Shown here: in pieces, positions 1,854 to 63,968 of the stretch | Layout: every line of letters starts with the position of its first letter | Position numbering within the stretch: the stretch's first letter is position 1 | NCBI GenBank assembly: GCA_903929765.1 | Contig: CAIYVX010000013.1 | Span: forward strand, 62,001 to 126,000 | Length of the DNA stretch: 64,000 nt | Direction of reading: 5' to 3' | Source: an uncultured Planctomycetia bacterium | GTDB taxonomy: Bacteria > Planctomycetota > Phycisphaerae > FEN-1346 > JAACEH01 | The notes under the pieces: generated by a model | What the model was told of the DNA's origin: nothing | What the model saw: the letters and a program-made list of their open reading frames with translations, nothing else | The model's database searches: none | Program-made: the position numbers and the translations under genes

Positions 1854-4800
1854 TTGAAAGCCAGTTCAGCCAATGTGCCGCAGGTGGTGGCCAATGAAGC
1901 GGCCTTTGCAGCGATGGCGGCGGCCCTGGAAAATCAGGGGGCGGCCATCGCCGAAGGTCTGTGGGGAAGCTCCGCGCGCGCTTTGGTCGCCGCCCTGGTC
2001 CAGCGGCAGCCGCGACCGGTGATTTTGTATTGTCTGGCCCACATCGACGACGCCGAAACGACTTGCGATGAGATCGCGGCGTTCACGGGTCTGCCCTGCA
2101 CAATCTTCCCGGCCTGGGAAAGCCTGCCGCGCGAGTCGGACGTTGGGGATGAGATTCTCGCCGGGCGGATACGCGTACTGAAGATGTTGAAGAATTTGAA
2201 GGTCGCTGGCGATGCGAACGGCAACGACCGGACAGGGCAGAGCCCTGTTCCTACGAAAAACAACCGGGCAGCGCGGCGGGCGCTGGCTCAAGGAAAGTCC
2301 CTGCCCAGCACGGGCGCGGCCTCCGACGACACAACACACACTTTGGCTTCGGCTTCGCCGAAGCTTCAAAGTGTGGCACCCGGAGTTTCGCCATTGATTA
2401 TTGTCGCGCCGGTGCAGGCGCTCCTGCAGCCGGTGCCAAGCCCGCGCCATCTCGACGACAATACCGTGGTGGTCAAGGTTGGCGAGGAGCAGGATCCCGA
2501 AAAGCTGCGGGCCTGGCTCGTGGAGCGCGGCTTTGTGGCGGCGGATCTGGTGAGCAGTCGCGGCGAGTACAGTCTGCGCGGGGGAATCATCGACGTCTTT
2601 CCGCCGGCGGGGGCGATGCCGTGCCGCATCGAATTTTTCGGCGACACGGTGGAGAGCATTCGGACCTTCGACACGGCGACGCAGAAGAGCGTGGCCGAGG
2701 TCCAGGAGGTGGCCATCACGTTCCTGCCGCCGGGCCAGACGGCCCCGACGGCGACGTGCAACTTATTGAATTATCTTCCTGAAGCCACGCTGACCGTCTG
2801 GCACGAACCGCTGGAAATCGCCGAGATGGGGCGGAGTTTCGTCACGCGGCTCTCCAGCCCCGTAGGCGTCTATGAGTACGCCGGCCTGGTGCGCCAGCGG
2901 CAGGGCTTCGCCCGGCTCGACCTCTGGAGCTTCGCGGCCGGCTCGGGCGAGGCGGCCCGGTTCTCCTTCCGCGTGGAATCGTTGCCGCCGTTCAGCGGCA
3001 AGGTCGAGCGGATCAAGGACGAACTGGCGGCCCTGGCCGGCGACGGGGCGGTCTGGATTTTTTCGGAGAACGAGGGTGAGCGGCAACGCTTCGACGAGTT
3101 GGTGGCCACGCTGCCGGAAGAGTTGCGGGATCGGGTGAGTACCTCGGCGGGCCTCCTCGCGGCGGGGTTCCGCTTGGCGGAGCAAAAGCTGGCCCTGGTC
3201 GGCAACCACGAGATTTTCCAGCGGTACAAACTGCGGCGCACCGGCGGCCAGCGGCCCGATTCGCGGCCGATCGATTCGTTCCTGGAGTTGAAGAAGGGCG
3301 ACCTGGTGGTCCACCTGGCCCACGGCATCGCCCGATACCTGGGCGTGGAGACGCTGAAGGACGGCGGGAAGACCGAAGATTACCTGGCCCTGGAGTTCCG
3401 CGAGCGGGCGAAGATGTATGTGCCGGCCTCGCACGTGCATCTGGTGCAGAAATATATTGGCGGGTTTCACGGTCAGGTGGTCCTGGCCAAGTTGGGCGGC
3501 AAGCTCTGGGCGGCGCAGAAGGAGAAGGTCAAGGAGGCGGTGGCCGACCTGGCCCTGGAGCTTTTGGACACCCAGGCGGCGCGGGCCAGCAAGGCCGGGT
3601 ACCAGTACCCTTCCGACACGCTCTGGGTGACGGAGATGGAGGCGGCGTTCCCGTACCAGGAGACCGACGATCAGCTCGCGGCCATGGAAGAGATCAAGAA
3701 GGACATGCAGTCGTCGCGGGCTATGGACCGCCTGGTTTGCGGCGACGTGGGCTACGGCAAGACCGAGCTGGCCATCCGGGCCGTCTTCAAGGCGGCCGAG
3801 GCCGGGAAGCAGTCGGCCGTGCTGGTACCAACCACGATATTGGCGGAGCAACATTACAATACTTTTCGGGAGCGGCTCGCGGACTATCCCCTGGGGGTCG
3901 AGCAACTCAGCCGCTTTCTGACGGCGCGACAGCAGCGGGACGTGATCGAGCGGGTGGGCAAGGGGTCGGTGGACGTGGTCATCGGGACGCATCGGCTGCT
4001 CTCGGCGGACGTCGAGTTCGCCGACCTGGGGCTGGTGGTCATCGACGAGGAACAGCGGTTCGGCGTCGAGCACAAGGAGCGGCTCAAGCGGTTCCGCAAA
4101 ACCGTGGACGTGCTGACGCTGACGGCCACGCCGATTCCGCGCACGCTGCACATGAGCCTCCTGGGCATTCGGGACATTTCCAGCCTGACCACGCCGCCGC
4201 AGGACCGCCACGCCATCCGCACCGAGGTCTGCCGGTGGGAAGACGAGCGGATTCGCCAGGCGATCTTGCGCGAACTGGCCCGCGACGGCCAGGTCTTTTT
4301 CGTTCACAATCGCATTTACAACCTTCAGGAGATCACGGCCCGCCTGGCGGCCCTGGTGCCCGAGGCCCGATTCGTCTGGGCTCACGGCCAGTTGCCGGGC
4401 GACGAACTGGAAGACCGCATGCACGAGTTCATCGCGCGGCGGGCCGACGTGCTGGTCAGCACGACGATCATCGAGAGCGGGCTGGACATTCCGACGGCGA
4501 ACACGATGTTTATAAATATGGCTGATATGTTCGGCCTGGCCGACCTGCACCAGTTGCGCGGGCGAATCGGACGCTACAAGCATCGTGGCTATTGCTACCT
4601 GCTGCTGCCCAGCGACCGTCCCGTCAAGCCGGAGGCGGTCAAACGCCTCAAGGCCATCGAGGAGTTCAGCGACCTGGGGGCGGGGTTCCAGATCGCCATG
4701 CGCGACCTGGAAATTCGCGGCGCGGGGAACATTCTGGGGGCGCAGCAAAGCGGCCACATCGCCACGGTGGGGTACGAATTGTTCTGCCAGCTTTTGGAGG

Positions 4801-5288
4801 AGGCGATTCGCCGGGCCAAGGGGGTCGAGACGCCGGAAGAGTTCGAGACCGTGGTCGAACTGGGCGTCAGCGCGTTCCTGCCGAAGGACTACGCCCCGAG
4901 CGACCGGCAGCGGATGACCGTTTATCGGATGATCAACCGCGCCGCCACCATCGAACGGCTGACCGAAGTGCGGGCCGACGTGATCGACATGCTCGGACCG
5001 CTGCCGGGGCCGGCGGAACTTCTGTTTGACTTGCAGGAAATCCGGATTCACGCCCGGCGGTGGAAGATCGGCGGGATCAAGCTGTTGGCCAATGACGTGG
5101 TCTTTACGCTCGGCCAGTTTCAGCACGTCGGGCCGCTCTTTCAGCAGGCCCCGGGCAAGGTCCGAGTCGTCAACGACACGACGGTCTATCTGCGGATGCG
5201 GCCGGAGATGACCGAGCCGCTGCGACTGGTAATCTTGATGAAGAAGATGCTGGCCACGGAGTCGGGCGGCGCGCTCACCCGGCCTTGA
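1854..5288 (+). CDS. mfd: Transcription-repair coupling factor Mfd (TTG start)
   Basis: UvrB-like N-terminus, CarD-like domain (KKGDLVVHLAHGIARY), RecG-like helicase motifs (GDVGYGKTELAIRA, DEEQRFGV), TRCF C-terminus; AGGAGG RBS. Confidence 0.97.
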   Translation: MKASSANVPQVVANEAAFAAMAAALENQGAAIAEGLWGSSARALVAALVQRQPRPVILYCLAHIDDAETTCDEIAAFTGLPCTIFPAWESLPRESDVGDEILAGRIRVLKMLKNLKVAGDANGNDRTGQSPVPTKNNRAARRALAQGKSLPSTGAASDDTTHTLASASPKLQSVAPGVSPLIIVAPVQALLQPVPSPRHLDDNTVVVKVGEEQDPEKLRAWLVERGFVAADLVSSRGEYSLRGGIIDVFPPAGAMPCRIEFFGDTVESIRTFDTATQKSVAEVQEVAITFLPPGQTAPTATCNLLNYLPEATLTVWHEPLEIAEMGRSFVTRLSSPVGVYEYAGLVRQRQGFARLDLWSFAAGSGEAARFSFRVESLPPFSGKVERIKDELAALAGDGAVWIFSENEGERQRFDELVATLPEELRDRVSTSAGLLAAGFRLAEQKLALVGNHEIFQRYKLRRTGGQRPDSRPIDSFLELKKGDLVVHLAHGIARYLGVETLKDGGKTEDYLALEFRERAKMYVPASHVHLVQKYIGGFHGQVVLAKLGGKLWAAQKEKVKEAVADLALELLDTQAARASKAGYQYPSDTLWVTEMEAAFPYQETDDQLAAMEEIKKDMQSSRAMDRLVCGDVGYGKTELAIRAVFKAAEAGKQSAVLVPTTILAEQHYNTFRERLADYPLGVEQLSRFLTARQQRDVIERVGKGSVDVVIGTHRLLSADVEFADLGLVVIDEEQRFGVEHKERLKRFRKTVDVLTLTATPIPRTLHMSLLGIRDISSLTTPPQDRHAIRTEVCRWEDERIRQAILRELARDGQVFFVHNRIYNLQEITARLAALVPEARFVWAHGQLPGDELEDRMHEFIARRADVLVSTTIIESGLDIPTANTMFINMADMFGLADLHQLRGRIGRYKHRGYCYLLLPSDRPVKPEAVKRLKAIEEFSDLGAGFQIAMRDLEIRGAGNILGAQQSGHIATVGYELFCQLLEEAIRRAKGVETPEEFETVVELGVSAFLPKDYAPSDRQRMTVYRMINRAATIERLTEVRADVIDMLGPLPGPAELLFDLQEIRIHARRWKIGGIKLLANDVVFTLGQFQHVGPLFQQAPGKVRVVNDTTVYLRMRPEMTEPLRLVILMKKMLATESGGALTRP
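2230..2254. repeat. Hairpin repeat GGACAGGGCAGAGCCCTGTTCCTAC (family F), inside mfd
   Basis: Inverted repeat; second copy at 27143-27167. Confidence 0.75.
2337..2384. repeat. Long hairpin repeat CACACTTTGGCTTCGGC-TTC-GCCGAAGCTTCAAAGTGTGGCACCCGGA (family A), in frame inside mfd
   Basis: Inverted repeat; shared with 34833-34882 and 45330-45378. Confidence 0.85.
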
Positions 5289-25928: not shown

Positions 25929-26017
25929 GGGGCGGACCTTTCTGTGGAAGAAAACAGCAACGGCAACGCCAAGCGGAACACGGCATTTTACCATGTTGGG
26001 CCAGGGCCCAACCTTCA

Positions 26018-26758: not shown

Positions 26759-26883
26759 TACGGAAGGGTGATAATAGGGTTTTTTGAGGGAAAGTCAAGG
26801 GCTAACAGCAGTCCTCAGACTTCAGTCCTCAGTCTTCAGGCGCAGCAGAAACAGAAAAAGGAGAAACAGAAGAAGAAAAAACA

Positions 26884-26910
26884 GCATCCCCCAGCAGTGC
26901 TGGGGGCTTA
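26884..26910. repeat. Hairpin CATCCCCCAGCAGTGCTGGGGGCT (family G)
   Basis: Second copy at 63890-63912. Confidence 0.65.
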
Positions 26911-26935
26911 ATAAGCAACAAAAACAAAGAGGGGC

Positions 26936-27832
26936 TTGTCAGATTCGGCTCGGGTGATTATGCTTTTGGCTATGCCCTTCGGACGAGCGGTTCACGGCAT
27001 CATCGGATTGTTCCTGCCTCGGGTGTGCATATCGTGCGGGAAGTTTATCGGCGGAATCGAACAACAGACACCCTCACCCTACCCTCTCCCGTCAAGGGCG
27101 AGGGGTGAAGAAGCAACGGCAACAGAAACAGAAACAACAACCGGACAGGGCAGAGCCCTGTCCCTACGAGAAGCAACAACAACCGGAACGGCGCTGTGTG
27201 CGGAGTGCCGAGATGGGATTGAGCGGGTGGCGCGGGAGCGGGCGTGTGGGCGGTGCGGGCATGGCCTGGGGCCACATGCGGCGTGTCCGGCGTGTGCGGA
27301 GGAAGAGCCGCCGTTTGAGGCGACGGTTCGTGTGGGGACATATCACGGGCCGCTGGGCGAGTTGGTGCGGCGCGTCAAGTACAAGGGCGTGCGCTATCCC
27401 GTGCCACTAATGGCGGAGTTGCTCTTGGCGCGGCTCCGGGAGAGCGGGGCGGCGGGGGAGATCGACGTGGCGACGGCGGTTCCGCTGCACTGGTGGCGGT
27501 ATTACCGGCGTGGGTTCAATCAGGCGGCGGTGCTGGGCCGGGAGTTGCGGCGTCGGGGGCTGGAGGCGCCGCTGGAACGGCTTTTGGCGCGGGTGCGTGA
27601 TACTCCGCCGCAGGTGGGGTTGAGCCGGACGGAGCGTCAGGAAAATGTGCGTGGAGCGTTCCGGGTGATGCGGGCGGAGGCGGTGAAGGGGCGGCGCGTG
27701 TTGCTGCTGGACGACGTGATGACGACGGGGGCGACGGCGGGGGCGTGCGCGCGGGAGTTAATTAAGGCGGGGGCGGCGCGGGTGACGGTGGGAGTGGTGG
27801 TAGTGGCGGGGGGAGAGGGAAATTTAAAATGA
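26936..27832 (+). CDS. comF: ComF family phosphoribosyltransferase (start uncertain)
   Basis: Zn-binding Cys pairs, RRGFNQAAVLGREL, VLLLDDVMTTGATA PRPP motif. Confidence 0.88.
   Translation: MSDSARVIMLLAMPFGRAVHGIIGLFLPRVCISCGKFIGGIEQQTPSPYPLPSRARGEEATATETETTTGQGRALSLREATTTGTALCAECRDGIERVARERACGRCGHGLGPHAACPACAEEEPPFEATVRVGTYHGPLGELVRRVKYKGVRYPVPLMAELLLARLRESGAAGEIDVATAVPLHWWRYYRRGFNQAAVLGRELRRRGLEAPLERLLARVRDTPPQVGLSRTERQENVRGAFRVMRAEAVKGRRVLLLDDVMTTGATAGACARELIKAGAARVTVGVVVVAGGEGNLK
27143..27167. repeat. Hairpin GGACAGGGCAGAGCCCTGTCCCTAC (family F), inside comF
   Basis: Matches 2230-2254 in mfd. Confidence 0.75.
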
Positions 27833-31565: not shown

Positions 31566-31751
31566 ACCCTCACCCGGCCGCTAAAGCGGCCACCCTCCCC
31601 CAGGGGGGTGAAAAACAGAAGAAGAAGAAGAAGAAGCCAAACAACACGGGCGACTCATGAGTCGCCCCTACAAAAGAAGAAGCAAAAGAAACAACAACCC
31701 AGGGGCAAGATGCCCCTGGGACTCACGGGCGGGACGCCCGTGGCACTGGAA
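31566..31751. repeat. Cluster of hairpin repeats (families B, H and C) separated by purine-rich spacers
   Basis: ACCCTCACCCGGCCGCTAAAGCGGCCACC..., GGGCGACTCATGAGTCGCCC, GGGGCAAGATGCCCC, ACGGGCGGGACGCCCGTGG. Confidence 0.7.
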
Positions 31752-63853: not shown

Positions 63854-63938
63854 GAAAAAGTAACGGCAAAAGAAGAAGAAACAACAGCGTCCCCCAGCAG
63901 TGCTGGGGGCTTCAAAAGAAAAAGCAACGGCAAGAAAA

Positions 63939-63968
63939 AGGGCGGCTCCGAGTGGAGCCGCCCTTTTG
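63939..63968 (+). terminator. Intrinsic terminator AGGGCGGCTCCGAGTGGAGCCGCCCTTTT
   Basis: 10-bp stem with T-run. Confidence 0.75.

Follow-up and report, generated by a model that had tools for sequence, protein, structure and literature searches.

Two dispersed palindromic repeats lie in frame within a predicted surface loop of the transcription-repair coupling factor Mfd in a member of the Phycisphaerae

The window, meaning the whole 64-kb stretch of DNA that was analysed, contains an mfd gene with an expanded loop region (Table 1). The Pfam domains of the product (UvrB_inter, CarD_TRCF_RID, DEAD, Helicase_C and TRCF) are the set expected of Mfd. About 60 bp of the mfd start (1848-1915) are near-identical to an upstream copy at 667-735; a uroporphyrinogen decarboxylase-like gene (813-1805) separates the two copies, an arrangement that amounts to a partial duplication.

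Table 1. Positions of the mfd gene, its loop and the repeat elements in the window
Feature	Position	Strand	Evidence or remark
mfd, transcription-repair coupling factor, 1144 aa, TTG start, frame unbroken	1854..5288	+	ORF and Pfam domains
Expanded loop region, about residues 117-180, helix 99-122 to strand 181-186	2202..2395	+	Alignment, phmmer, AlphaFold (predicted structure)
T-free A-rich linker 5' of F (GCGAACGGCAACGACC)	2214..2229	+	
Family F palindrome, hairpin GGACAGGGC-AGA-GCCCTGTTC and tag CTAC	2230..2254	-	GTAG and hairpin (GTAG-type REP)
T-free linker 3' of F (GAAAAACAACCGG)	2255..2267	+	
Ancestral-loop remnant STGAASDD (sister genus: ATGAAHEG)	2307..2330	+	Alignment with sister-genus Mfd
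Family A palindrome, 17-bp stem, 3-nt loop, conserved 3' tail GCACCCGG	2337..2384	+	Hairpin part 2337-2375
Core of the window's second F copy, in frame in comF-like ORF (26936-27832)	27148..27159	+	

In the alignment, 76 residues separate the conserved anchors L112 and A189 of the window Mfd, whereas the equivalent spacing is 23 in the sister-genus Mfd (L037 of genome G001, a protein sequence also present in the Phycisphaerae MAG JAAYDY010000049) and 18 in the median for the class. The resulting excess of about 53-58 residues agrees with the in-frame extra of about 55-65 amino acids proposed in the initial annotation. The insert falls between residues 100 and 104 of E. coli Mfd (phmmer), and its translation includes the predicted peptides TGQSPVPTK and LQSVAPGVSPLIIVAPVQ. 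The initial annotation treated these residues as foreign to typical Mfd proteins, and the alignment bears this out, as they occur in none of the Mfd orthologs examined, including that of the sister genus and those of other members of the class. A search of Rfam found nothing matching near the insert.

The two hairpins that had been placed within this region, one of family F and one of family A, were correctly located, and as single-stranded DNA both fold better than shuffled sequences (z = -3.45 for F and z = -6.19 for A). In the Mfd copy of F, the arms occupy 2230-2238 and 2242-2250, followed by the CTAC tag (GTAG on the minus strand) at 2251-2254. Because a remnant of the ancestral loop, aligned with its sister-genus counterpart, lies between the hairpins, the insert is best read as two separate events of about 34 and 20 residues, one on either side of the old loop.

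Both elements belong to dispersed families, as judged by pattern and BLAST searches of the genome together with sampled stretches. When used as a BLAST query, the Mfd insert matches 45 other places in the genome, nearly all with E < 1e-6; the adjacent 211 bp of mfd, used as a control, gave one match besides itself at E < 0.001, probably uvrB. Near-identical copies of both hairpins had been noted at other places, which holds true of the genome, with its 44 F cores and about 30 copies of A, but less so of the 64-kb window, where there is a sole other F copy (most copies being elsewhere in the genome) and a search with the full-element pattern found no second A. Growth of the loop by local slippage, or by expansion of the low-complexity DNA within it, with a convergent likeness to the dispersed repeats, is extremely improbable. 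The linkers within it do consist of low-complexity, T-free, triplet-like sequence, but the hairpins match the dispersed families to about 82-95% over 40-60 bp, non-palindromic tails included, and neighbouring mfd DNA is without such matches.

The 12-nt core of F has 44 exact occurrences in the 3.83-Mb genome, against one for a reversed-pattern control. The F copies seen have GGACAGGGCAGAGCCCTGT(C/T)CCTAC in common, which on the opposite strand reads as GTAG and then the hairpin. This unpaired GTAG stands at the hairpin foot on the minus strand, as GTAG-GGACAGGGC-TCT-GCCCTGTCC in the F copies listed and as GTAG-GAACAGGGC in the Mfd copy. In PMC3733652, GTAG REPs are defined by a GTAG at the foot of a hairpin that has a stem of 5-13 bp and a loop of 2-20 nt. 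The 9-nt arms and 3-nt loop of F lie inside these limits, and its 44 exact cores agree with the dispersal of GTAG-type REPs (tens or more copies per genome). No RAYT gene flanked by F was found, the 8 Y1_Tnp genes of the genome all being without an F copy to a distance of about 1.5 kb. Since RAYT genes with other flanks were reported by Di Nocera et al. (PMC3733652), the missing association alone would not exclude F from the REP class.

The DNA on both sides of F is nearly devoid of T. For roughly 20 nt before F copies and 15 nt after them, T makes up about 0-5% of the sequence, while A rises to 52-67%. A stop codon is impossible in all six frames of T-free DNA, and the consensus sequences of F and A have no stop codon in any of the three sense frames. 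T-free A-rich low-complexity linkers made of mixtures of AAC, GGC, AGA and AAG are found genome-wide, each copy being different; examples in the window are at 25946-25985, 26837-26935, 31610-31710 and 63862-63946.

Family A is represented by 30 distinct copies in sampled loci of the genome. Its stems covary, three inner pairs being altered on both sides (10 cells versus 1.8 +/- 1.1 in shuffles), and none of 500 shuffles reaches 10 cells. From this joint change of the inner pairs it follows that the hairpin as such is kept, or that copying takes place in the hairpin form. The aligned A copies have neither a GTAG nor a CGTC tag at the hairpin foot, where GCACCCGG follows instead; A is here classed simply as a palindromic repeat.

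The use of this loop by repeats is not confined to one genome. Loop lengths were taken from the alignment between the anchors for 88 loops in the class, the compared genomes being mostly draft MAGs, and nine of the 88 loops are at least 35 residues long. In eight of these nine (this genome, G002, G003, G005, G006, G051, G114 and G117), the DNA of the loop recurs elsewhere in the genome concerned, and so does that of a 29-residue loop in G024. The loop repeats differ from lineage to lineage across these nine lineages, which comprise this genome and eight other genera. The ninth long loop, of 36 residues (L115 of G087), was rejected as repeat-derived, its insert being without any other copy. Under codon shuffling, the excess of hairpin stability has a mean z of -2.9 in loops of at least 35 residues (n = 9) and a mean z of -0.07 in loops of fewer than 24 residues (n = 71). 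The loop is also the main site of large lineage-specific insertions, with few elsewhere in the first 480 residues of 28 Mfds. Thus, the Mfd loop acts like a natural slot within a core gene in which selfish DNA can land. In another Mfd (L063 of G030), a 24-residue insert TGGSPVSSDDAEEHGRAARGTGKP near residue 445 of the window protein looks like another translated palindrome.

The frame is open across the loop in all nine repeat-derived lineages, with no stop inside it among the Mfd matches listed, which argues that the loops are translated. The hairpins could instead remain untranslated, either because the ribosome skips them (byp-like hopping) or because they are removed from the RNA. Intragenic hairpin elements that are bypassed do occur in yeast mitochondria. 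Skipping, however, would free the frame to drift, and nine of nine lineages would be in frame by chance with a probability of about (1/3)^9, making this a very improbable explanation of the open frames.

The loop is predicted to be disordered. An AlphaFold2 model of the window Mfd, built on 28 aligned sequences, has a mean pLDDT of 84 and a pTM of 0.82, and its closest structural matches are Mfd crystal structures. Residues 121-180 have a pLDDT of 29-56 in blocks of ten, as against more than 90 in the flanking core. The model is consistent with the surface loop in the UvrB-like module that the initial annotation anticipated and predicts that the insert forms a disordered loop between the helix at 99-122 and the strand at 181-186.

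Mfd is not the only conserved gene of this genome to carry F or A. Decorated genes were found as ORFs spanning a copy, which is not a census, and were counted only with a Pfam or PDB match in the same frame. Because T-free linkers open frames by chance, a long ORF across an F copy did not by itself count as a gene, and N-terminal copies in a fumarase (L013) and RmuC (L010) were left out because they may be upstream of the true start. F lies in frame in the linker that joins the N- and C-terminal domains of MutL, in LpxB (about 65 residues versus about 22 in the PDB homologue) and in a PMT-domain protein. In the comF-like gene of the window, the in-frame insert combines family F, read as GQGRALSLR, with a second repeat family (SPYPLPSRARGEE), and a Kdo/APH-type kinase gene carries an in-frame copy of A. 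The elements in these five genes are all sense-oriented. F is read as RTGQSPVPT in Mfd and as TGQGRALSLR in the other genes, that is, in two different frames. Selection on the F-encoded peptide is therefore unlikely; it is the DNA that spreads and not the peptide.

An adaptive role would have the insert modulate Mfd, whether in UvrA binding, auto-inhibition or removal of RNA polymerase, with decorated repair genes being kept for a change in mutation rate. In favour of such a role, this genome has repeats in two repair genes, those for Mfd and MutL, and the Mfd loop has been hit in nine lineages. According to PMC3733652, intragenic REPs are known in frame in several phyla, often in DNA replication and repair genes, and Di Nocera et al. 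speculated there that decorated repair genes may be retained through a changed mutation rate. However, LpxB, comF-like, PMT-type and kinase genes are decorated as well, the residues vary by lineage and reading frame in a loop that is predicted to be disordered, and most members of the class are without an enlarged Mfd loop. An adaptive role is accordingly judged unlikely.

The palindromes are strongly biased in orientation. With respect to the G-rich strand, 29 of 31 copies of F, 26 of 30 copies of A and 20 of 21 copies of a third family (GAGAGGGGTGAAG) have the same orientation; strand skew was computed without the 200 bp around each element, duplicates were removed from the A count, and some loci contain two families. 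The G-rich strand is usually the leading strand. If that is so here, the strand lock would fit elements entering a single strand at the replication fork, and it could partly be a reflection of gene direction. One-strand insertion at the fork is documented for IS608 and ISDra2 (PMC6006769).

Y1_Tnp has eight matches in the genome. One of them (L070; contig C59, 1370-2700) is a Y1 transposase gene with an HVHI motif and five CCCCAGCnnnGCTGGGG palindromes around it, members of a family with 123 genome copies (control, 0). The linkers at L070 are of the same kind as those of F and are inverted, lacking A on the left side of the gene and T on the right side. A further match (L072, contig C22) lies near three GTAG-GGCGGTTGC...GCAGCCGCC elements, which form a separate GTAG REP family. 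As no Y1_Tnp gene lies next to F, we only infer that F and A are mobilised by a Y1 transposase.

Palindromes in frame within genes are already known, and the additions made here are the recurrent Mfd slot, the T-free linkers and the strand lock. F resembles the GTAG REPs of PMC3733652 in its GTAG, in its hairpin with 9-nt arms and a 3-nt loop, in numbering tens of copies, in the presence of Y1 genes in the genome and in its in-frame copies in repair genes. It differs from them in its T-free linkers, which are not among the REP features described in the sections consulted, and family A differs in having no tag. In that paper, REPs within one functional category are mostly at different sites, with the exception of recB in two Xanthomonas species, whereas here one Mfd loop is used in nine genera by different families. 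The word mfd is absent from the text of Di Nocera et al. (PMC3733652), and the titles retrieved from the open-licence literature included none on palindromes in Mfd, which is weak evidence of absence. The RPEs of Rickettsia are likewise palindromic selfish DNA in frame in conserved protein genes, and are apparently neutral in the tested gmk case (Ogata et al. 2000, reviewed in PMC2229807). They are comparable to the in-frame palindromes of Mfd, MutL, LpxB and other genes described here but are 105-146 bp long, whereas in this member of the Phycisphaerae F is about 25 bp and A 48 bp. RAYT/TnpA-REP and IS200/IS605 systems (PMC6006769) have in common with the repeats of this genome a hairpin (with a tetranucleotide, in the case of F), Y1_Tnp genes in the genome and a strand-biased orientation, but neither F nor A is linked to a transposase here. 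The GTAG-bearing strand of F coincides with the C-rich strand, and this polarity does not clearly agree with that expected of IS608-like insertion.

The insert most probably represents two separate insertions of non-autonomous, hairpin-forming selfish DNA, tolerated by the loop and probably acquired through single-stranded DNA transposition. A GTAG-type REP (F) and a longer palindrome (A) would have entered the surface loop of the UvrB-like module independently. Each would have arrived in frame and sense-oriented, and in that orientation all three frames of both elements are free of stops. The approximately 53 extra residues would be translated as a disordered loop and would presumably be neutral. 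Such insertions may persist because the loop tolerates changes in length, while those out of frame or elsewhere in the gene would be purged. The repeats would most likely have spread by single-stranded DNA transposition, in which Y1 (HUH) transposases would use just one of the strands at the replication fork. Beyond what the initial annotation proposed, this account includes two events around an ancestral remnant, recurrent use of the loop in other lineages and insertions in other conserved genes.

The Mfd loop amounts to an experiment, repeated by nature, that shows where a core repair machine has loops able to accept a foreign peptide, and it is a clear case in which mobile DNA, and not slow drift, has made a loop of a protein family grow. 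Both the strand lock and the T-free linkers offer leads, open to testing, on the way in which REP-like elements insert. More tentatively, these repeats may possibly belong to a class of replication-strand-locked palindromic modules, each a hairpin between T-free linkers and stop-free by construction in its three sense frames, that could settle in spacers and coding sequence alike and would repeatedly enter the same permissive loops of core repair proteins such as Mfd and MutL. If this were true, part of the coding genome would be a normal habitat for selfish DNA.
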